Below, one piece after another: positions 1,744 through 27,770 of a stretch of DNA of 43,371 nucleotides. The DNA is taken from positions 1 through 43,371 of the forward strand of contig JANXQO010000002.1 of NCBI GenBank assembly GCA_025353485.1, given 5' to 3'. Source of the DNA: Chitinophagales bacterium. Lineage in GTDB: Bacteria > Bacteroidota > Bacteroidia > Chitinophagales > Chitinophagaceae. The notes beneath the pieces were generated by a model. That model was not told the DNA's origin, did not search any database, and was given only the letters and a program-made list of their open reading frames with translations. A program made the translations under genes and the position numbers. Numbering within the stretch: position 1 is the stretch's first letter; every line of letters starts with the position of its first letter.

Positions 1744-1773
1744 GTCTCCTTTTTAGGGAGATTTAGAGGGTTT
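1744..1773 (+). repeat. 33-bp-family palindrome in antisense at the trpE 3' end
   Basis: On the plus strand it reads GTCTCC, a T-rich loop, GGGAG, then ATTTAGAGGG, the layout of the family. It is antisense to trpE. Read along trpE, its tail gives ACC CTC TAA, so the last two residues and the stop codon of TrpE come from the repeat. Confidence 0.6.
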
Positions 1774-3196
1774 CTGCCAACTCAATCGCTTTTTTTAAAG
1801 CATTTAATTTATTATTCACTTCCTGTAATTCACTCTCCGGTTTTGATACTGCAACTATCCCTGCACCAGCCTGGTAAGTCAACGTATTGTCCTTGCTCAA
1901 AAAAGTTCTTATCATTATTGCATGGTTGCAGCTTCCATCAAAACCTATAAAACCAATACAGCCACCATAATAACTTCTAGGTGAATTTTCAAACTCATTT
2001 ATCAGCTGCATTGCTTTATATTTTGGCGCACCACTTAATGTACCCGCAGGAAATGTTACCGCTAACAGGTCAAATGGATTGGTGTCTTTTCTAACAACAC
2101 CCTGTACTTCGCTAACCAAATGAATTACGTGAGAGTAATATTGTATCCGTGAAAACTCAGTGACAGTAACGTTATCACACATCCTGCTTAAGTCATTTCT
2201 TGCAAGATCAACCAACATTACATGCTCCGCATTTTCTTTTTTATCTGTTAACAAACTTGCAGCTAATTGCTTATCAACTTCATCATCTCCTGTTCTTTTA
2301 AAAGTTCCCGCAATGGGATGTACAGTGGCTTTATTATTTTCAATTATCAATTGGCTCTCAGGGCTGCTGCCAATTAATTTATAATCACCATAATCAAAAT
2401 AAAAAAGATAGGGGCTTGGGTTAATACTTCGCAATGCACGATAGACATTAAATTCATCTCCTGTGAATGATTGTTTAAATTGCCTGCTTACCACGATCTG
2501 GAAAACATCTCCGCGATGGCAACTGGCAATTCCTTTTTCCACCATCTCAATATATTCCTCATTGGTAATTGAAGAAGTCTCACCTCCTTTTACATTAAAA
2601 GGGTATGCGGGAACATCTTTACTTTTTATGAGGCTTTCAACAAGATCACTTTCACTTACAATATTATTTATATGATTTTCGCAAATGAATAATTCATCTT
2701 TAAAATGATTAATTGCAATAACGTATTGGTACAAGCGATAACGCATTAAAGGAATAGCCCCCTCTAAATCTCCCTCCATAGGGGAGACTTTCGAAGCGCT
2801 TAAATTAATCGTATCAAAAAACTGAACTGCATCATATGTTGTATACCCGAATAATCCCTGCGCAATATTCACCGGCTTTTTTGCAACTTCTTTTATTTCG
2901 AATCGCTGCATAAAATTCCAAAGATGAGTGGTGATATTATTTGTCTTATCAATTTTTATTCTTTCAGGATTTCTTCCCGGTAATTTAAATTCGATCTCCT
3001 GTGGGTTGGTTATCTCAATTCCCGCAATGGCATTTATACCTATAAAAGAATAGCTGTTTTCGCCTGCATGAAAATCGGTGCTTTCCAATAAAATTGTATC
3101 TCTGAATCTATCTCTCAGCCTGAGATATATGCCCACCGGTGTGTATACATCAGCTAAAAGTTTTTTAAAAGAGGTATTAATTTCTATCTTCTTCAT
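1763..3196 (-). CDS. trpE: Anthranilate synthase component I (TrpE)
   Basis: TrpE makes anthranilate from chorismate using ammonia from TrpG, the first committed and feedback-inhibited step of tryptophan synthesis. The N-terminal motif LLES near residue 36 is the conserved tryptophan-binding site of the family. The chorismate-binding half carries HPIAGTFKRTG, the DLARNDL segment and FPAGTLSGAPK. The length of 477 is normal. Residues 137-147 (VSPMEGDLEGA) are encoded by a palindromic repeat inserted between NLSAS and IPLMRYRLYQY, in a linker that is variable in the family. The C-terminus ends within another repeat copy. It is preceded by a tryptophan leader peptide and attenuator, so expression should fall when charged tRNA-Trp is plentiful. 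Confidence 0.97.
   Translation of the reverse strand: MKKIEINTSFKKLLADVYTPVGIYLRLRDRFRDTILLESTDFHAGENSYSFIGINAIAGIEITNPQEIEFKLPGRNPERIKIDKTNNITTHLWNFMQRFEIKEVAKKPVNIAQGLFGYTTYDAVQFFDTINLSASKVSPMEGDLEGAIPLMRYRLYQYVIAINHFKDELFICENHINNIVSESDLVESLIKSKDVPAYPFNVKGGETSSITNEEYIEMVEKGIASCHRGDVFQIVVSRQFKQSFTGDEFNVYRALRSINPSPYLFYFDYGDYKLIGSSPESQLIIENNKATVHPIAGTFKRTGDDEVDKQLAASLLTDKKENAEHVMLVDLARNDLSRMCDNVTVTEFSRIQYYSHVIHLVSEVQGVVRKDTNPFDLLAVTFPAGTLSGAPKYKAMQLINEFENSPRSYYGGCIGFIGFDGSCNHAIMIRTFLSKDNTLTYQAGAGIVAVSKPESELQEVNNKLNALKKAIELAETL
2756..2788 (-). repeat. 33-bp palindromic element inserted in frame in trpE
   Basis: On the coding strand it starts GTCTCCCC, has a complementary GGAGGGAG arm and ends TTTAGAGGGGGCT. 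It is 33 bases long and encodes VSPMEGDLEGA in the same frame and orientation as the copies in the alpha-2-macroglobulin and uvrA genes. Confidence 0.8.
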
Positions 3197-11160: not shown

Positions 11161-14100
11161 ATGAGTTTTAATTTTTTACTGCAGAGATCTTTAATTGCTT
11201 TCTGCATTTCCTTTTTATTCTTTCAATGTACTGCACAACAGTCATTTAATAATTACGAAAAACAATGGAAACAGGTTGACGAATTTATTAAGAAAGGGCT
11301 AACTAAATCCGCATTGGAAGCAACAATAAAAATTTATGAAACAGCAAAAAAAGATAACAACGATCCGCAAATAATTAAAGCGCTTTTTTTTCGTATTATA
11401 GTAAACAGAAACCTGGAGGAAAATGCAAATGTAAAAAGTATTGCCCTTGTTGAAAAAGAAATACAATCATCCAACCAACCTGCAAAGTCAATACTGAATA
11501 GTATCCTGGCAGAAATGTATTGGATTTTTTTACAACAAAACCGCTATAAATTATATAACAGAACCCAGACAGTTGACTTTAAAAAAGATGATATTCTTAC
11601 ATGGGGTATGGAATATCTGCACAAAAAAATTGCCGGGTTTTATCTCTCTTCAATTAAAGAAGAAAAATTGCTACAGCAAACAAAGCTGGATCAGCTTGAT
11701 GCAATTATCAGTAAAGGAAATGTTCGCTACCTGCGCCCCACATTATACGATCTGTTAGCGCATCGTGCATTGAATTATTTTAAAAATGATGAACGTGACA
11801 TAACAAAACCTGCTTATGCTTTTGAGATAAAAGAGGAGAAAGCATTTGCAACTGCAAAAGAATTTGCGGCTCATAGATTCATTAATAAAGATTCTTCTTC
11901 GCTTCATTATTATGCAGTGGTTATTTACCAAAAGCTGTTAAGCTTTCATGCCGCTGATGCAAAACCTGATGCATTGATAGATGCAGATATTGACCGCATA
12001 AATTTTATGAAGCAATATGGAGTGATGGATAAAAAAGATGAGCTCTACCGAAAAGCATTGCAAAATATTGTTGATGATTATCCAAATAATCCTGCTGCAG
12101 CCCAGGCAGATTTTCTTCTTACACAGGAAATTTACAATATTGCGATAACAGAAAATAGTGCTCAAAAGAAATACACAATTAAATATGCAAAAGAATTACT
12201 GGAAAATATTTATAAAAAATTCCCTGAAAGCGAAGGCGGCATCAATGCAAAAAATTTATTGAATCAAATTCTCCACAAAGAATTAAATCTTACATCCGAA
12301 AAAGTAAATGTTCCCGGTGAGCCATTCCGGACATTAGTTTCTTACAAAAATATTTCTTCAATTAATCTTAGGATAATTGAGCTTAGTCCGGAATTTAAAA
12401 AACTGCTTGCGATAAATACAGACAATGAACAGCTTTGGAATAAACTTACTTCTCAAAAAAGTATAAGAAGCTGGAGACAACCTTTACCTCTGCCGGAAGA
12501 TTATAAAACACATTCAACTGAAATTAAAATTGATGCATTACCCGTTGGCGAATATGCTTTGCTGGCAAGCGCTTCAGAAGATTTTAACCTGACTAAAAAT
12601 CCGCTGTCAGCCCAATATTTTCATGTCTCCAATATTAGTTATATAAATAATGGAACCGAATATTTTGTGTTGGATCGCACTACAGGAAAGCCTTTAACCG
12701 GCGCAAAAGTGCAGGTGTGGAACCAACGGTATGATTATAATGCAAGGAAAAATATTTTTGAGAAACTGGAGCTTTTAACTGCTGATAAAAACGGGTATAT
12801 AAAATTAACAGATAAAAAAAATGCAGAGCGTAACATACGGTTAGAGATCAATTACCAAAAAGATAAATTGTTTTTGGATGATTACCAGTACAACTATAAT
12901 TATAACACAGAAGAAGAGATTTATAAAAGTCAAAAAAAATATAATGAAGACAAAGCAAAAATATTTTTATTTACTGACAGGAGTATTTACCGTCCTGGGC
13001 AATTAGTTTATTTTAAAGGGATTGGAATAACACAGGATTATATAACAAAGAAGAATCAGCTTTTGGCAACAAAGGATTCTGTAAAAATATATTTGAATGA
13101 TGCCAATTCACAAAAAGTAGATTCAATAAAACTCTTATTAAATGATTTCGGTTCTTTCAATGGAAAATTTCGCCTGCCGGAAAATCAATTGAATGGAGAG
13201 TTTACTATTAAAGTTGATGATTATGAAAACTCATCAATTAATTTTTCTGTAGAAGAATATAAGCGCCCAAAATTTTATGCCGGGTTTGAAAAAGTAAAAG
13301 GATCATATCGTGTAAACGAAAAAATAAAGATCACCGGCTTTGCCAAAGCCTATGCAGGAAATAATATTGATGGCGCAAATGTAAAATACAGGGTTACAAG
13401 GGTTGCAAGATTTTTATACGACTGGATGTGGTGGTACAGGCCCAGACCACAATCTTCTTCGCTTGAAATTACCAACGGCGAAATTAAAACAGGCGCTGAT
13501 GGAAAATTTATCATAGAGTTTGAAGCCATTCCTGATCTTACTATTGATAAAAATACCCAACCGGTTTTTGATTACAAAGTAGAAGCAGATATCACAGACA
13601 TAAATGGTGAAACAAGAAGTACGTCTGCTGTTGTTCCTGTTGGCTACAAAGCGCTTGACCTGCAAATAACCCTGCCGGAAAATGGAACCATAAATACTGA
13701 CAGCCTTAAACATATTTTTGTAAGCACTAAAAATTTAAGTGGCGAGTTTGAGCCTGCAAAAGTTGATCTAAAAATTTACAAATTGCAAATACCGCAAAGG
13801 CTTATCCGCAGCCGGTATTGGGATAAGCCCGACCAGTTTGTTATGAGCAAAGAAGAATTCTTAAAATATTTTCCTAACGATGAATATAAAGATGAAAGCA
13901 AAAAAGAAACATGGCTAAAGGGTGAAGTTGTTTTTGAATGGAATGACTCCACATATTTAAATTCTAACATCAAAATTCTAAATTCTAAATTTTCGCAAGG
14001 ATGGTATGTGGCAGAAGCAACTTCAAAAGATAAATATGGGCAGGATGTAAAAGATGTAAAATATTTTCAGTTGTACGATATTAAAGCCTCTTCGCTACCT

Positions 14101-17100
14101 GCACCTTCATATTCATGGAACACAACAATTAAAAACATTACAGAGCCTGGAGAAAAAGCACAATTTATTTCCGGTACATCAGCCAATGATATTTTTCTTA
14201 TTCAGCAAATTGATAAAACCAAAACAGGAAACAGGCAACTGGCAACTGGCAACTATGTATTTTATTCTCTTAACAATGAAAAGAAAACTTTTGAATTTCC
14301 TGTTGCAGAAGAAGACCGCGGAGGTTTTGGTATATCTCAATTTTTTGTAAAAGACAACCGTGTTTATTCTAACTCATGGAATGTAATGGTGCCATGGACC
14401 AACAGGCAACTGGATATAACTTTTGCAACTTTCAGAGATAAAACTTTACCCGGCAGCGAAGAAAAATGGAAAATAAAAATCAGCGGATACAAGGGGCAAA
14501 AAGCGGCTGCCGAAATGCTGGCAAGTATGTATGATGCATCGTTGGATCAATTCAAGTCACATAGCTGGAGTGGGTTAAATATCTGGCCCGGCTTTCATAA
14601 ATACAGCAATTGGAATCCAACACAAAATTTTACTTCAGTACGCTCTTTTAAAAAATGGTTTAGTGAAGATTATGTACCACAGAAAGAAAAAACATACGAT
14701 GCTTTGATGTCACTCGGTTATGAGAATACAAGAACAATAAGAGGAATTAATTCTATGGCTTACGGAGTTGATAAAGCTGCGCCGCAAAGGATGGAAAAAA
14801 ATACAGATCTGCAGGAAGCACCTATTAGAATGCAAAGCGAAGATGAAGATAAAGTTTATACAAAAGTTGAATATACATTACCTAATGGCGACCTATTTAT
14901 AAATGGCAGGATTATTAAAAAGAAAGAACCAATCAATAATGATGGCATTCAAATCCGAAAAAATTTCAACGAAACTGCATTTTTCTTTCCTGAATTAAGA
15001 ACAGATAAAGATGGAAATATAGAATTCAGTTTTACAATGCCTGAAGCATTAACCAAATGGAAGTTGATGACATTGGCGCACACAAAAGATCTTTCAAGTG
15101 GCTATTCAGAAAAAACAGTTATCACTCAAAAAGAATTAATGGTGCAACCCAATGCTCCAAGGTTTTTAAGAGAAGGTGACCGCATGGAGTTTAGCGCTAA
15201 AATTGTAAACCTTGGTGAGAAAGAAATTATGGGTGTTGCACAATTGCAATTGCTAAATGCATCTACAATGAACACAATTGATACATGGTTTAAAAATCTT
15301 ACGCCGCAAAGATCATTTACCATTGCTGCCGGGCAAAGCGCTGCGGTAAAATTTAATATAGAAATTCCAACCAATTTCAACAACGCTGTCGTTTATAGAA
15401 TTGTTGCGAAAGCCTCCCCCACCGGGGGAGGTTTGGAGGGGGCTGTCAGCGATGGCGAAGAAGCCGCAATCCCCGTTCTCACCAACCGCATGTTGGTTAC
15501 TGAAACTATGCCTTTACCGGTAAGAGGAAACACAACAAAAAATTTCCGTTTCGAAAGGCTTCTTAACTCCTCCCCCACCGGGGGAGGCCGGGAGGGGGCT
15601 TCAACACTCACAAATTTTTCATTAACCACAGAGTTTACAACTAACCCTGCCTGGAATGCAGTTCAGGCATTGCCTTACTTAATGGAATATCCTTATGAAT
15701 GTGCAGAGCAAACATTTAACCGCTATTATGCAAATTCCATCGCAACAAAAATTGTAAACTCATCACCTAAAATAAAAGCAGTTTTTGATAAGTGGGCTTC
15801 GCAGGTCTCCCCCACCGGGGGAAATTTAGAGGGGGCTGCATTGCTTTCCAATCTTCAAAAAAATGAAGAATTAAAATCTGTTTTATTACAGGAAACGCCA
15901 TGGGTATTGCAGGCGCAAAATGAAACACAGCAAAAGAAAAATATTGCATTGCTGTTTGATATGATTCGCATGAGTAAAGAACTTGAGTCATCTCTTGCCA
16001 AATTAAAAGAGATGCAGTCTTCCAACGGCGGCTTTGTATGGTTCAAAGGCGGACGTGATGACCGTTACATGACACAATATATTATCACAGGTATCGGTCA
16101 TCTTAAAAAACTTGGCGCATTATCAAAAGCTCATGAAGAAAAAATAAGTTCAATTTTAAAAACAGCCATTCCATACTTAGATAAAAGATTGAAAGAAGAC
16201 TACGATTACCTTATCAAATACAAAACAAAATTGGATCAGAATAATCTTGGTTATATGAGCATACATTATTTGTATATGCGCAGTTTCTTTCCTGAATATC
16301 CCATAGCAAAAGAAACACAAACTGCCTATAATTATTATCGTGATCAGGCAAAAAAATATTGGCTCAGTCAAAGTAAATACATGCAGGCAATGATCGCATT
16401 ATCTTTAACCAGAACCAATGATAACATAACGCCAAAGGCAATTACAAGATCATTAAAAGAGAACTCCATAAACAATGAAGAACTCGGCATGTATTGGAAA
16501 GAATGGGATAGCCACAGCTGGTGGTGGTACCAGGCTCCTATCGAAAGCCAGGCAATGATGATAGAAGCTTTTACAGAAGTTGATAAAGACGGCAAAACAG
16601 TTGACGAACTTAAAACATGGCTGCTGAAAAATAAACAAACCAACAACTGGCAAACCACCAAAGCCACTGCCGAAGCCTGTTACGCCTTGTTACTACAGGG
16701 CACCGATTGGTTAAGCGAAGAAAAAAATGTTACCATAAAATTGGGAAGCACAATTATTAACAGTAAAGATGAAAAACAGGAAGCAGGCACAGGATATTTC
16801 AAACACAAAATCATCGGCGAAAATGTAAAACCAGAGATGGGAAATATTTCAGTGACTTTGAAAAATGAAGACTCCAAAGTTCCCCCTTTAGGGGGCGGAG
16901 GGGGTTGGGGCGCCGTCTACTGGCAATATTTTGAAAATCTTGATAAAATAACTTTTGCTGAAACACCTTTGAAGCTTAATAAAAAATTATTCATTGAAAA
17001 AAATTCTGATACAGGGCCGGTACTTACACCTGTTAATGAGGGTACCCAATTAAAAGTTGGCGACAAAATAAAAGTGCGCATAGAATTACGTGTTGACCGT

Positions 17101-17388
17101 GACATGGAATACGTTCACATGAAAGACATGAGAGCCGCCTGCATGGAGCCAACAAATGTTATCAGCCAATACAAATACCAGGGCGGTCTTGGTTATTATG
17201 AGAGCACCAAAGATGCCAGTACTAATTTCTTTTTTAATTATCTAAATAAAGGCACCTACGTTTTTGAATACCCGATGTTTGTAACACACAGCGGCAATTT
17301 CAGCAATGGCATCACCACCATTCAATGCATGTACGCTCCCGAGTTTACTGCTCACAGCGAAGGCGTAAGAGTTAGCGTGAGTGAATAA
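11161..17388 (+). CDS. Alpha-2-macroglobulin family lipoprotein with thioester motif
   Basis: A 2075-residue exported protein. The N-terminal signal ends at a lipobox-like FFQC (about residue 22), so it is probably membrane anchored in the periplasm. About 350 helical, TPR-like residues follow, then macroglobulin beta domains (FTDRSIYRPGQLVYFKG near 605), the bait-region half (NGDLFINGRI) and the complement-like half. The thioester motif CAEQ (Cys1514, in YPYECAEQTF) is intact, so it could covalently trap proteases. The C-terminal receptor-like domain ends in HSGNFSNGITTIQCMYAPEF. Four palindromic repeats lie within it, adding Gly-rich peptides at about residues 1418, 1470, 1549 and 1907. No penicillin-binding protein gene is adjacent, unlike in many proteobacteria. 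A strong hairpin follows the stop. Confidence 0.93.
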   Translation: MSFNFLLQRSLIAFCISFLFFQCTAQQSFNNYEKQWKQVDEFIKKGLTKSALEATIKIYETAKKDNNDPQIIKALFFRIIVNRNLEENANVKSIALVEKEIQSSNQPAKSILNSILAEMYWIFLQQNRYKLYNRTQTVDFKKDDILTWGMEYLHKKIAGFYLSSIKEEKLLQQTKLDQLDAIISKGNVRYLRPTLYDLLAHRALNYFKNDERDITKPAYAFEIKEEKAFATAKEFAAHRFINKDSSSLHYYAVVIYQKLLSFHAADAKPDALIDADIDRINFMKQYGVMDKKDELYRKALQNIVDDYPNNPAAAQADFLLTQEIYNIAITENSAQKKYTIKYAKELLENIYKKFPESEGGINAKNLLNQILHKELNLTSEKVNVPGEPFRTLVSYKNISSINLRIIELSPEFKKLLAINTDNEQLWNKLTSQKSIRSWRQPLPLPEDYKTHSTEIKIDALPVGEYALLASASEDFNLTKNPLSAQYFHVSNISYINNGTEYFVLDRTTGKPLTGAKVQVWNQRYDYNARKNIFEKLELLTADKNGYIKLTDKKNAERNIRLEINYQKDKLFLDDYQYNYNYNTEEEIYKSQKKYNEDKAKIFLFTDRSIYRPGQLVYFKGIGITQDYITKKNQLLATKDSVKIYLNDANSQKVDSIKLLLNDFGSFNGKFRLPENQLNGEFTIKVDDYENSSINFSVEEYKRPKFYAGFEKVKGSYRVNEKIKITGFAKAYAGNNIDGANVKYRVTRVARFLYDWMWWYRPRPQSSSLEITNGEIKTGADGKFIIEFEAIPDLTIDKNTQPVFDYKVEADITDINGETRSTSAVVPVGYKALDLQITLPENGTINTDSLKHIFVSTKNLSGEFEPAKVDLKIYKLQIPQRLIRSRYWDKPDQFVMSKEEFLKYFPNDEYKDESKKETWLKGEVVFEWNDSTYLNSNIKILNSKFSQGWYVAEATSKDKYGQDVKDVKYFQLYDIKASSLPAPSYSWNTTIKNITEPGEKAQFISGTSANDIFLIQQIDKTKTGNRQLATGNYVFYSLNNEKKTFEFPVAEEDRGGFGISQFFVKDNRVYSNSWNVMVPWTNRQLDITFATFRDKTLPGSEEKWKIKISGYKGQKAAAEMLASMYDASLDQFKSHSWSGLNIWPGFHKYSNWNPTQNFTSVRSFKKWFSEDYVPQKEKTYDALMSLGYENTRTIRGINSMAYGVDKAAPQRMEKNTDLQEAPIRMQSEDEDKVYTKVEYTLPNGDLFINGRIIKKKEPINNDGIQIRKNFNETAFFFPELRTDKDGNIEFSFTMPEALTKWKLMTLAHTKDLSSGYSEKTVITQKELMVQPNAPRFLREGDRMEFSAKIVNLGEKEIMGVAQLQLLNASTMNTIDTWFKNLTPQRSFTIAAGQSAAVKFNIEIPTNFNNAVVYRIVAKASPTGGGLEGAVSDGEEAAIPVLTNRMLVTETMPLPVRGNTTKNFRFERLLNSSPTGGGREGASTLTNFSLTTEFTTNPAWNAVQALPYLMEYPYECAEQTFNRYYANSIATKIVNSSPKIKAVFDKWASQVSPTGGNLEGAALLSNLQKNEELKSVLLQETPWVLQAQNETQQKKNIALLFDMIRMSKELESSLAKLKEMQSSNGGFVWFKGGRDDRYMTQYIITGIGHLKKLGALSKAHEEKISSILKTAIPYLDKRLKEDYDYLIKYKTKLDQNNLGYMSIHYLYMRSFFPEYPIAKETQTAYNYYRDQAKKYWLSQSKYMQAMIALSLTRTNDNITPKAITRSLKENSINNEELGMYWKEWDSHSWWWYQAPIESQAMMIEAFTEVDKDGKTVDELKTWLLKNKQTNNWQTTKATAEACYALLLQGTDWLSEEKNVTIKLGSTIINSKDEKQEAGTGYFKHKIIGENVKPEMGNISVTLKNEDSKVPPLGGGGGWGAVYWQYFENLDKITFAETPLKLNKKLFIEKNSDTGPVLTPVNEGTQLKVGDKIKVRIELRVDRDMEYVHMKDMRAACMEPTNVISQYKYQGGLGYYESTKDASTNFFFNYLNKGTYVFEYPMFVTHSGNFSNGITTIQCMYAPEFTAHSEGVRVSVSE
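14234..14254 (+). repeat. Three tandem 7-bp units inside the macroglobulin gene
   Basis: GGCAACT occurs three times in a row (21 bases, frame preserving), giving RQLATGNY. The same heptamer with an A before it occurs once more near 14404. It looks like a small microsatellite expansion. Confidence 0.6.
15412..15444 (+). repeat. 33-bp palindromic element, macroglobulin copy 1
   Basis: Arms CTCCCCC and GGGGGAG around ACC, then a tail ending GAGGGGGCT. It encodes ASPTGGGLEGA and begins at a codon boundary. Confidence 0.9.
15568..15600 (+). repeat. 33-bp palindromic element, macroglobulin copy 2
   Basis: The same hairpin as copy 1 with tail CCGGGAGGGGGCT. It encodes SSPTGGGREGA in the same frame and orientation, 156 bases downstream of copy 1. 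Confidence 0.9.
15805..15837 (+). repeat. 33-bp palindromic element, macroglobulin copy 3
   Basis: The hairpin CTCCCCC-ACC-GGGGGA with tail ending TTAGAGGGGGCT. It encodes VSPTGGNLEGA, again in the same frame, about 35 residues after the thioester cysteine. Confidence 0.9.
16879..16914 (+). repeat. Related G-rich palindrome, macroglobulin copy 4
   Basis: TCCCCC-TTTA-GGGGG is followed by a G-rich tail (CGGAGGGGGTTGGGGC). It encodes VPPLGGGGGWGA. Sequence differs from the 33-bp family but the layout (hairpin plus G-rich tail) is the same. Confidence 0.7.
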
Positions 17389-24735: not shown

Positions 24736-27700
24736 TTAAACATTTAATTCCTGTTTTAAAAATTTAGCTGTGTAACTTTCTTTATTTTTTGTAAGATTCT
24801 CCGGAGTTCCTTCAAATAAAATTCTTCCACCTTCATCTCCTCCTTCCGGACCAAGATCAATTATATGGTCAGCAATTTTAATAACATCCATATTATGTTC
24901 TATCACTAAAACTGTATTTCCCCTGTCAACTAATTTATTTAATACATCAGCCAGGTGCTGAATATCCTGGAAATGCAAACCCGTTGTAGGCTCATCTAAA
25001 ATATAAAATGTTTTGCCCGTATCTCTTTTCCCCAATTCAGTTGAAAGCTTTACCCGCTGTGCTTCTCCACCACTAAGCGTTACAGCGCTTTGTCCTAAAG
25101 TAATATATCCTAATCCTACTTCCTGCAACACTTTTATCTTTCTATATATATAGGGTACGTTTTGAAAAAACTCTACAGCTTCATCAACTGTCATATCCAG
25201 TACATCGCTGATAGATTTTCCTTTATACCGTATCTCCAGTGTTTCACGGTTGTATCTTTTACCATTACACTTTTCGCAATGCACATATACATCAGGCAAA
25301 AAATTCATTTCTATAACTTTCATTCCACCGCCTTCGCAAACATCGCACCTTCCGCTTTTTACATTAAAAGAAAAACGCCCCGGAGTGTAGCCTCTTATTT
25401 TTGCTTCAGGCACCGCCGCAAATAATGTTCTTATGTCAGTAAAAAATCCGCAATATGTTGCAGGGTTACTTCTTGGTGTTCGTCCTATTGGAGACTGGTT
25501 TATTTCGATCACCTTATCAATATTTTCCAATCCATCAATAGTTTTAAATTCCAGCGGTGTCATTTTACTATTGTATGCATGTTTACTTAAAATTGGATAA
25601 AGCGTTTCATTTATTAATGTTGATTTACCGCTTCCGCTTACACCGGTAATGCAAATAAATTTTCCTAAAGGAAATGTTGCAGATACATCTTTTAAATTAT
25701 TTCCTGAAGCTCCTTTTAATTTTAATGTTTTGCCATTTCCTTTTCTTCTTTCTTTTGGAACAGGAATTTTTCTATGGCCATTGAGGTAAGAAGAAGTTAC
25801 CGTATCTAATTTCAAAAGATCTTCCGGTATACCTGCTGCAACTATTTCTCCTCCATGTTTGCCTGCATCGGGGCCAATATCAATTAAATAATCTGCAGCC
25901 AGCATAATATCTTTATCATGCTCAACAACTATTACACTGTTGCCGATATTGCGCAAATTATTTAATGCATCTATCAGGCGATGATTATCTCTTTGATGCA
26001 ATCCGATGCTGGGCTCATCTAAAATATACGTAATGCCTTGTAGTTGAGAACCAATTTGCGTTGCCAGCCGTATACGTTGAGATTCGCCACCACTAAGGCT
26101 TTTAGAAGAACGGTTCATACTGAGATAATTTAAACCCACATCTAATAAAAACTGCAGGCGGTCTCTTATCTCTTTTAAAATATCTTTTGCAATCTGGTTT
26201 TGCCGGTTGCTTAACCTATCTTCAATATCATCAAACCAAACAATTAATTTATCAAGATTTAATTCGCTTAATTCAGCAATATCTCTTCCATCAATTTTAA
26301 ACCATAAACTTTCTTTGCGCAATCTTTTTCCATTACAGGTAGTACAGGTTTTTAATTGAAAATATTTTTCTACCCATGCTCTCATTCCCTCACTGGTTGT
26401 GCTTGCACTAAACCATCTTTTAAGCATATTTATTATCCCTTCATACCCGGTTGTATAATATGCTTTCGCTCCATCGGTTTCTTCATCCCGATAGCTATCG
26501 GGATTTTCTGAAATAATTGTTTCATTAAGGTCAAAATCTACTGTATCATCACCGTTCACTTCTTCCTTACCGTACAACAAAATATTTAATGATTTTGGAG
26601 GTAATTCTTTTAATGGCTTATCTAAATTTATTTTATGCTTTTTTGCAACCTGCTGAACCTGTTTAAAAACATACGCTTGCCGTTCTTCCCCCAGCGGTGT
26701 AATTCCACCTTCATTAATACTTAATTTCCAATCAGGAATTATTGACTCTGGATTTATCTGGTACACACTCCCAAGTCCTTTGCAGGTGGGGCATGCGCCA
26801 TAAGGTGAATTAAAAGAAAAACTATTGGGCGAAGGTTCTTCATAACTAATACCGGTTTCTTCGCACATTAATTGTTTTGAATATGAAGCCCCCTCTATCT
26901 CCCCCAATGGGGGAGAAAACACAGAAGATTGCAGCAAGTTATCTTTTGCAATTTTAAAATCTTTTGCAGAGGTTTTGTGTGTTGGTACTTCTGCGGGGTT
27001 TGGGGAGGCCGATATGAACATGAGATCTTTACCCAACTGCAAACATTTTTGTACGCTCTGGCTAAGGCGTACTTTCATATCATCAGTTACCTGCAACCTA
27101 TCAACTACCAATTCAATATCATGAATTTTATAACGGTCTACCTGCATCTTCGCAACAAGATCCTTTACTTCACCATCAACCCTCACTTTTAAAAAACCTT
27201 TTTTTCTTACATCCTCAAACAATTCCCTGTAATGCCCTTTGCGGCCACGAACCAAAGGCGCAAGCAAAGAAATTTTTTTATTCTTAAACCTTTTAAAAAT
27301 ATTTTCTACAATTTCCTCTTCGCTCCACTTAACCATTTTTTTGCCGGTGTTATAACTATATGCCTCTCCTATTCTGGCAAATAACAATCTGAAAAAGTCA
27401 TAGACTTCTGTAACAGTTCCTACAGTGCTTCTGGGATTTTTGTTTGTAGTTTTTTGTTCAATAGAAATAACGGGAGAAAGCCCTGTGATCTTGTCAACAT
27501 CGGGGCGTTCCATATCACCAATGAACTGTCTTGCATAAGCAGAAAAACTTTCCATGTAACGCCTTTGCCCCTCAGCATAAATTGTATCAAAAGCTAACGA
27601 GGATTTGCCGCTTCCGCTAATACCAGTAATAACAACTAATTTATTTTTGGGGATTGTTATATCAATATTTTTAAGATTGTGAACCCTTGCACCAAAAACT

Positions 27701-27753
27701 GCAATTGCATCTTCCGGCAGTCCATCCTGCACTTCTTCCTTGTTTTTTGTCAT
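24736..27753 (-). CDS. uvrA: Excinuclease ABC subunit UvrA with two palindrome insertions
   Basis: UvrA is the damage-sensing ATPase dimer of nucleotide excision repair. Both ABC modules are complete: Walker A GISGSGKSS and GVSGSGKST, signatures LSGGESQRIRLA and LSGGEAQRVKL. Zinc-binding cysteine pairs appear in CPTCKG, CTTCNGKR, CDVCEGGG and CEKCNGKR. I use the ATG giving MTKNKEEVQ; the TTG four codons upstream lies inside the promoter box. At 1005 residues it is longer than the usual 940-950. Residues 279-289 (FSPPLGEIEGA) come from a 33-bp-family repeat and residues about 417-423 (ENPDSYRDE) from a separate 20-base palindrome. Both lie outside the nucleotide-binding motifs. Confidence 0.97.
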   Translation of the reverse strand: MTKNKEEVQDGLPEDAIAVFGARVHNLKNIDITIPKNKLVVITGISGSGKSSLAFDTIYAEGQRRYMESFSAYARQFIGDMERPDVDKITGLSPVISIEQKTTNKNPRSTVGTVTEVYDFFRLLFARIGEAYSYNTGKKMVKWSEEEIVENIFKRFKNKKISLLAPLVRGRKGHYRELFEDVRKKGFLKVRVDGEVKDLVAKMQVDRYKIHDIELVVDRLQVTDDMKVRLSQSVQKCLQLGKDLMFISASPNPAEVPTHKTSAKDFKIAKDNLLQSSVFSPPLGEIEGASYSKQLMCEETGISYEEPSPNSFSFNSPYGACPTCKGLGSVYQINPESIIPDWKLSINEGGITPLGEERQAYVFKQVQQVAKKHKINLDKPLKELPPKSLNILLYGKEEVNGDDTVDFDLNETIISENPDSYRDEETDGAKAYYTTGYEGIINMLKRWFSASTTSEGMRAWVEKYFQLKTCTTCNGKRLRKESLWFKIDGRDIAELSELNLDKLIVWFDDIEDRLSNRQNQIAKDILKEIRDRLQFLLDVGLNYLSMNRSSKSLSGGESQRIRLATQIGSQLQGITYILDEPSIGLHQRDNHRLIDALNNLRNIGNSVIVVEHDKDIMLAADYLIDIGPDAGKHGGEIVAAGIPEDLLKLDTVTSSYLNGHRKIPVPKERRKGNGKTLKLKGASGNNLKDVSATFPLGKFICITGVSGSGKSTLINETLYPILSKHAYNSKMTPLEFKTIDGLENIDKVIEINQSPIGRTPRSNPATYCGFFTDIRTLFAAVPEAKIRGYTPGRFSFNVKSGRCDVCEGGGMKVIEMNFLPDVYVHCEKCNGKRYNRETLEIRYKGKSISDVLDMTVDEAVEFFQNVPYIYRKIKVLQEVGLGYITLGQSAVTLSGGEAQRVKLSTELGKRDTGKTFYILDEPTTGLHFQDIQHLADVLNKLVDRGNTVLVIEHNMDVIKIADHIIDLGPEGGDEGGRILFEGTPENLTKNKESYTAKFLKQELNV
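26485..26504. repeat. Perfect 20-base palindrome inside uvrA
   Basis: ATCCCGATAGCTATCGGGAT is fully self-complementary. It encodes part of ENPDSYRDE within a variable segment of UvrA. Confidence 0.75.
26887..26919 (-). repeat. 33-bp-family palindromic element in frame in uvrA
   Basis: On the coding strand CTCCCCC-ATT-GGGGGAG is followed by ATAGAGGGGGCT. It encodes SPPLGEIEGA in the same frame as the macroglobulin and trpE copies. It has two bases fewer in the tail, compensated by flanking bases. Confidence 0.85.
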
Positions 27754-27762
27754 AATAGTTTG

Positions 27763-27770
27763 CAAAGATA
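27763..27770 (-). promoter_or_regulatory. -7 promoter box for uvrA
   Basis: TATCTTTG on the minus strand, only nine bases ahead of the uvrA ATG. Transcription from it would give a leader of a few bases at most. Confidence 0.55.

Follow-up and report, generated by a model that had tools for sequence, protein, structure and literature searches.

Palindromic repeat insertions in a macroglobulin gene and other protein genes of Bacteroidota, read mostly in one non-basic frame

A small palindromic repeat, hereafter the CTCCCC element, was found within the bacterial alpha-2-macroglobulin gene of a Chitinophagales bacterium, in a 43,371-nt stretch of DNA (hereafter the window). The macroglobulin copies very probably arose by insertion, at different times, of a non-autonomous palindromic repeat that has spread in some Bacteroidota and whose survivors inside genes are translated as linkers. 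The repeat is dispersed in many copies, is absent from most homologues of the genes that carry it, is selected for reading frame inside genes, occurs repeatedly in the same loops and is patchily distributed; the hairpin family is real and, as judged from the literature searched, new and in a new setting, and the evidence is strong that insertion and frame selection took place. The features of the window are as follows.

11161..17388, plus strand: bacterial alpha-2-macroglobulin ORF of 2075 aa (Pfam MG2, A2M, A2M_BRD and bMG10), carrying copies A to D
15412..15444, plus strand: copy A, translated ASPTGGGLEGA
15568..15600, plus strand: copy B, translated SSPTGGGREGA
15700..15711, plus strand: CAEQ, which we take to be the thioester motif, between copies B and C
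15796..15804, plus strand: upstream tail GCTTCGCAG of copy C, of the CTTCGAAAG type that recurs upstream of many copies
15805..15837, plus strand: core of copy C, translated VSPTGGNLEGA
16880..16906, plus strand: copy D, a related shorter subtype (VPPLGGGGGW) with a weak match to the family model (E 0.2)
2756..2788, minus strand: copy in a TrpE-like ORF (1763-3196, minus strand), translated VSPMEGDLEGA
26888..26917, minus strand: copy of a short-spacer subfamily in the UvrA ORF (24736-27765, minus strand; NCBIfam UvrA), translated FSPPLGEIEGA

An earlier note on this DNA had described three copies of a 33-bp hairpin unit in the macroglobulin ORF, on the same strand, in the same frame and each starting at a codon boundary (15412, 15568 and 15805), with the peptide SPTGGGLEGA or near variants on both sides of the thioester site. 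This description agrees with our analysis, copies A and B lying before CAEQ (base 15700) and copy C after it. The count has to be extended by the related fourth copy at 16880 and by those in two other genes of the window, and 33 bp holds for the core, to which a recurrent subfamily-specific upstream tail (about 9-22 nt by eye) is added in many copies; we infer that the tail at 15796..15804 is part of the copy C element. Allowing up to two mismatches, we counted 7 occurrences of TCCCCCNNNGGGGGA in the window, where shuffles predict 0.33.

Each macroglobulin site was compared with 20 homologues of more than 40% identity that span it. The window has 75 nt at site A, where 16 of the 20 homologues have 51 nt (net gain of 24 nt or 8 codons), 75 nt at site B against 54 nt in 17 of 20 (21 nt or 7 codons) and 69 nt at site C against 45 nt in 17 of 20 (24 nt or 8 codons), the homologues outside these main classes showing other lengths. 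As judged from these alignments, the three copies are insertions. The expectation that exactly 11 residues would be missing at each site was wrong for the macroglobulin (8, 7 and 8), whereas IcmF, a clean case, has exactly 11. The net gains at the three macroglobulin sites (24, 21 and 24 nt) imply that the host gave up some 6-18 bases, either replaced at insertion or lost later, the figure varying with the length of tail included. Decayed copies at site A, with a similar peptide kept over a decayed palindrome, were detected in 2 of the 20 homologues (L032 and L034), copy B in none of the 20, and an intact copy at site C in one of 20 (L047). At site D, L029, L030, L034 and L312 have copies that are different or decayed. 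In L031, L032, L046 and L047 the same site is occupied by a low-complexity insert, for instance NQSTNQPINPS encoded by CCAATCAA-like repeats. The alignments obtained between the macroglobulin and solved structures stop short of the copy sites.

The presence of SPTGGGLEGA three times in one protein could also be read as a conserved functional peptide, with the palindrome following from the codons chosen for it. However, most homologues lack the segment, the exceptions that keep it over a degraded palindrome being the two at site A, unrelated enzymes read this DNA in either orientation and in various frames, and a large number of copies are not in genes at all, so a peptide motif as the origin of the repeat is very improbable.

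The TrpE-like ORF has trpE as its top NCBIfam match, under the cut-off. A copy sits at the site equivalent to 2756..2788 in the TrpE-like gene of relative G010 (L414). The other relatives shown carry unrelated sequence in this loop, which falls short of the window's by 3 nt in G008 and by 6-27 nt in the remaining ones; TrpE of G008 (89% identity) thus has a loop of almost the same length without the palindrome. The spacer of the G010 copy is itself interrupted by a hairpin of 19 nt, CCTGCCACCGGCAGGCAGG, which is unrelated and breaks the frame there, an exception to the keeping of frame. The part of UvrA that precedes YSKQLMC varies in length; the copy is common to the window and G010, G015 has another hairpin at this place, and the remaining relatives shown have less sequence. 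This second hairpin type, AAAGCCCCTCCTTCGGAGGGGTTTGGGGAGGCTTT (L265), is in frame and adjoins a copy of the main element; it may represent a sister family.

The core of the element can be described as AAG[TC]CTCCCC-NNNN-GGGGGAG-spacer-GAGGGGGCT, preceded by a tail that differs by subfamily (GCGTTAGCAAG, CTTCGAAAG, CTTCTCCATT or GCTGCTTGC). Using a sequence-only family model built from 26 copies, with a cut-off of E<0.01, we identified 60 copies in the bacterium's own genome (G000; 3.8 Mb in 189 contigs), and these 60 alone were used in the coding, tail and edge-tag analyses of this genome. One tandem array (C165:6528-6828, corresponding to L116:2029-2349) consists of six copies with a period of 54 nt and the GCGTTAGCAAG tail. 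Taken singly, copies have an unexceptional DNA fold (z of -0.5 to -1.5 against shuffles). At the gathering threshold of Rfam the element matched no family, the two matches in the window being SRP RNA and tRNA; a BLAST search of phage and plasmid records with the 41-nt consensus, with the low-complexity filter on, gave no match; and no description of this family was found in the literature as searched by title and opening of the abstract.

The distribution among relatives is patchy. With up to 119 candidates scored per genome, so that counts are lower bounds, 9 of 59 genomes including its own were positive, with at least 56, 25, 21, 12, 12, 3, 2, 1 and 1 copies; 66 of the 71 copies from relatives were analysed further, five weak ones being omitted. 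In a phylum-wide sample scored at 23 candidates per genome, again giving lower bounds, a match was found in at least 12 of 296 genomes, its own included. A scan of named genomes for exact matches to the core (CTCCCCNNNNGGGGGAGATTTAGAGGGGGC) gave at least 117 stretches, and among the matches listed 88 are titled Mucilaginibacter, the other hosts listed being Pedobacter, Terrimonas, Chryseotalea, Chitinophagaceae, Sphingobacteriales, Prevotella, Bacteroidaceae and unplaced Bacteroidota; 116 of the 117 listed are titled as Bacteroidota and one as a Proteobacteria MAG. The CTCCCCNNNNGGGGGAGATTTAGAGGGGGC pattern was also detected in 27 stretches of IMG/VR contigs. The genome of the window is a metagenome assembly in 189 contigs, a circumstance in which an artefact of assembly or binning might be suspected; against this, the element is present in isolates, including Mucilaginibacter polytrichastri and M. 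lappiensis, and orthologous inserts recur in other genomes, so that such an artefact is scarcely credible.

A copy was classified as well inside a gene when a home-made codon score of 30 or more was reached with no fewer than 25 codons on each side. By this measure 85 of 250 copies are well inside genes and 165 are not: 25/60 in its own genome, 10/24 in G015, 8/9 in G046, 8/19 in G010, 5/12 in G008, 2/2 in G003 and 27/124 in the named genomes. At least three of the 250 were counted twice, as the named contigs L160, L198 and L220 agree in length with contigs of G015 and G010, and the duplicate L220 is among the 85 but was removed in the deduplicated test below. The genes hit, as assigned by NCBIfam, include those for UvrA, TrpE-like, IcmF (twice), NadB, RelA/SpoT, MetH, MurC, MetRS and an aminotransferase, most of these scans having been made on pieces of about 140 residues that score below whole-protein cut-offs; further targets are AroA, IleRS, ValRS, CCA-adding enzyme and QueE. 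For AroA, IleRS and CCA-adding enzyme the element lies in or beside a stretch that is unaligned or missing in solved homologues, and the alignments of these three, of the macroglobulin and of UvrA and TrpE-like place the inserts in length-variable stretches. For ValRS the alignment of a solved relative passes through the element site with small gaps; for QueE the best solved relative is longer at the site and L052, a match in G035, is 8 residues shorter.

Two further synthetase genes deserve mention. In a gene that presumably encodes LeuRS, a copy stands just before the YTTRPD motif, at the identical place in four genomes (L313, L168, L154 and L182), which may reflect one old insertion or repeated ones. 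In L233, which we take to be an IleRS-like gene, the element precedes a WTTT motif.

The choice of reading frame inside genes is far from random, in agreement with the selection on frame that the earlier note had proposed. At least two frames are open for each of the 85 in-gene copies. The two basic frames, SLPHRGRFRGG with its variants (open in 71) and KPPLNLPRWGRL (open in 51), are used by none of the 85 against 29.5 expected, and the SPTGGDLEGA frame or a variant of it is used by 60 against 21.0 expected, where the null takes all open frames as equally likely. An earlier version of our classifier had placed one copy, taken to be SPPPPGEVGRGL, in the basic class, and the changed classifier places none. 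After removal by hand of 15 copies judged to be shared insertions, the remaining 70 gave 0 in basic frames against 23.8 expected and 49 in the SPTGGDLEGA frame against 17.5, and no simulation out of 50,000 was as extreme. The count of copies by frame across genomes is thus strongly biased. The GTTAGCAAG-type tail, which has an in-frame TAG in the commonest frame, lies upstream of 0 of 58 in-gene copies compared with 25 of 68 other copies. From the unused basic frames, the excess of SPTGGDLEGA and the lack of the TAG tail in genes, the inserts appear to be translated, selection apparently removing stops and basic peptides.

Orientation is less constrained than the earlier note supposed in tracing it to a TAA in the antisense reading: 18 of the 85 in-gene copies are antisense, because TAA blocks only one antisense frame and APSKSPPVGET stays open. 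The filter against the two basic frames is stronger than that of the antisense TAA. Hairpins within essential genes would also be tolerated if the ribosome bypassed them, leaving the insert out of the protein; mobile bypassing elements of yeast mitochondria are an example of such translational bypassing. The strict avoidance of stops and basic frames implies instead that the inserts are read, and skipping is accordingly given very little credence.

Several loops carry copies of more than one form. The loop of CCA-adding enzyme has copies in opposite orientations in G000 and G015 and none in L169; a hydrolase loop has copies read in different frames in G000 and G015; a loop of an unnamed gene has one subfamily in G000 and G008 and another in G010, the G008 and G010 copies being below the coding threshold; the UvrA loop differs in form between G000, a G010 fragment (three copies) and G015; and macroglobulin site D shows differing forms in one loop. 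Such copies are apparently independent hits, which would fit both a small number of tolerant loops and a preference for certain sites. A clean insertion in a well-aligned gene is that in IcmF, where G000 and G010 are filled and G008 is empty: exactly 33 nt are inserted without target duplication. The empty site in G008 is TTAAAAGGGGCT, which resembles the joined ends of the element, a hint, so far no more than that, of microhomology at those ends.

Together these data suggest how the insertions in the macroglobulin gene might have arisen and persisted. A palindromic repeat, present also on viral contigs, would spread through the genomes of some Bacteroidota, presumably moved by an enzyme acting in trans, with a single-stranded hairpin as the putative transposition intermediate and with microhomology at the ends possibly helping the choice of site. 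Survival of an insertion inside a gene would mostly require a length that preserves the frame, a reading frame that is free of stops and not basic, and a position in a tolerant, length-variable loop, where the insert would be translated as a short linker, usually VSPTGGDLEGA, in a protein that probably still functions.

Palindromes that code for protein are best known from Rickettsia and Wolbachia, obligate intracellular bacteria in which their tolerance could be put down to drift and genome decay. The parallel with the Rickettsia palindromic elements (RPEs) drawn in the earlier note is a good one: the CTCCCC element works like them, being dispersed (60 copies at E<0.01), absent from most homologues and interspersed in frame within protein genes that include those for tRNA synthetases, with ValRS and QueE as unclear cases of insertion. 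In the parts available of the sources, RPEs are placed within genes, in solvent-exposed regions of the proteins (PMC3733652, PMC3767692, PMC2229807, PMC6006769), and are reported to be translated and to occur also in DNA polymerase and tRNA synthetase genes, their mobiliser being unnamed in those parts. By sequence motif, tag and host, however, the element is a separate family. The RPEs described in the accessible sections of PMC3767692 measure 100-150 bp, compared with a core of 33 nt here, and the ATGAC motif given there for RPE-4, -6 and -7, the one RPE motif compared, is absent from our alignment and from all 66 cores of relatives. Their hosts are Rickettsia and Wolbachia, whereas ours are Bacteroidota, including free-living isolates, together with viral contigs. 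The accessible text of PMC3733652, PMC3767692, PMC2229807 and PMC6006769 does not describe the CTCCCC element.

Among bacterial repeats, the GTAG/CGTC REPs are palindromes of 20-40 bp in high copy, mostly intergenic, with some in uvrA and tRNA synthetase genes, and CGTC repeats have been reported in Bacteroidetes (PMC3733652, in the part available). Size, hairpin and the in-gene targets uvrA and tRNA synthetases are thus alike, but the GTAG/CGTC tag at the foot of the hairpin is lacking in our element (of 60 copies, two that belong to the C165 array have GTAG, GTGG or CGTC at an edge), and 25 of the 60 copies in its own genome are well inside genes, unlike the mostly intergenic REPs of that source. 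A target-site duplication as in MITEs is absent at the single clean site, IcmF.

Y1 transposases are the usual suspects for the movement of REPs, and the element might accordingly be the REP of a RAYT (TnpA-REP, Y1 transposase), which would move it. The REP-like size, hairpin and copy number and the ten Y1_Tnp matches in its own genome agree with this idea, as do the atypical secondary structures that adjoin Bacteroidetes subclass 2.6 genes according to the available part of PMC6006769. RAYT-associated REPs flank the Y1 (HUH) transposase gene, but the element was found within about 1.5 kb of none of the 40 Y1 loci fetched, of 50 Y1 matches in 14 genomes; comparison of 117 named loci with six Y1 ORFs of its own genome revealed a single Y1 gene, 2,964 nt from an element. 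Nor does the number of Y1 genes track that of elements: G046 (72% complete) has 12 elements but lacks a Y1 match; in G004 and G017 the reverse holds, with 7 and 6 Y1 matches, respectively, and not one match to the element. Two RAYT-like genes of its own genome are flanked by a different small dispersed palindrome, TGTCCTGAGTTnnnAACTCAGGACA:

L065, positions 1193-1215 and 1818-1842: TGTCCTGAGTTnnnAACTCAGGACA palindromes flanking the RAYT-like gene
L066, positions 1001-1025, 1681-1705 and 1800-1824: TGTCCTGAGTTnnnAACTCAGGACA palindromes flanking the RAYT-like gene

This palindrome occurs at 14 places in the genome, none of them scored coding, compared with 25 of 60 for the CTCCCC element (Fisher p 0.002), and the pair is a positive control within the same genome for the neighbourhood of a RAYT. 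Checked from both sides, Y1 loci and element loci, the RAYT link was not supported, and a RAYT as the mobiliser is improbable. The systematic search for a mobilising gene, which covered Y1 genes, gave no candidate beside the element.

More tentatively, the family may extend across many Bacteroidota and their phages, be moved by a trans-acting system other than a neighbouring RAYT and be an ongoing source of surface loops and of start-site leaders in phages; we consider this wider proposal possible, with the odds somewhat against it. If true, protein-invading palindromes keep supplying new surface loops to essential enzymes. Behaviour like that of the Rickettsia elements is here met in Bacteroidota that include cultured, free-living species, and the frame choice and repeated hits in this large natural set of insertions point to the loops of essential enzymes that can accommodate about 7-14 additional residues. 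The question of the mobiliser can be put to the test in hosts that grow in culture, such as Mucilaginibacter.

The copies outside genes bring up another reading, that the hairpin is primarily regulatory, a terminator or a start-site element with a Shine-Dalgarno-like GAGGGGG, and that intragenic copies are stray by-products. In its favour, 165 of the 250 copies fall short of the criterion for lying well inside a gene, and intergenic copies ending within 20 nt of a start codon are more frequent in the sense than in the antisense orientation, both on the named contigs (12/49 against 2/35, p 0.035) and on the viral contigs, which are related to each other (12/17 against 0/11, p 0.0003). This test used 115 of 124 named and 31 of 33 viral copies, with genes predicted by a simple caller of our own. 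A regulatory origin leaves unexplained the copies deep in essential genes, the antisense copies and the spread itself; as the primary account it is unlikely, somewhat less so than movement by a RAYT, and it is compatible with insertion of a mobile repeat followed by frame selection, which we prefer. The proximity to start codons may be due to GAGGGGG lying at the spacing of a Shine-Dalgarno sequence. None of the 33 viral copies scored as well inside a gene. In five of the IMG/VR contigs (L352, L365, L366, L368 and L372), which by eye look like related tailed phages, the element lies 6-18 nt before start codons, and phages may be carriers of the element.
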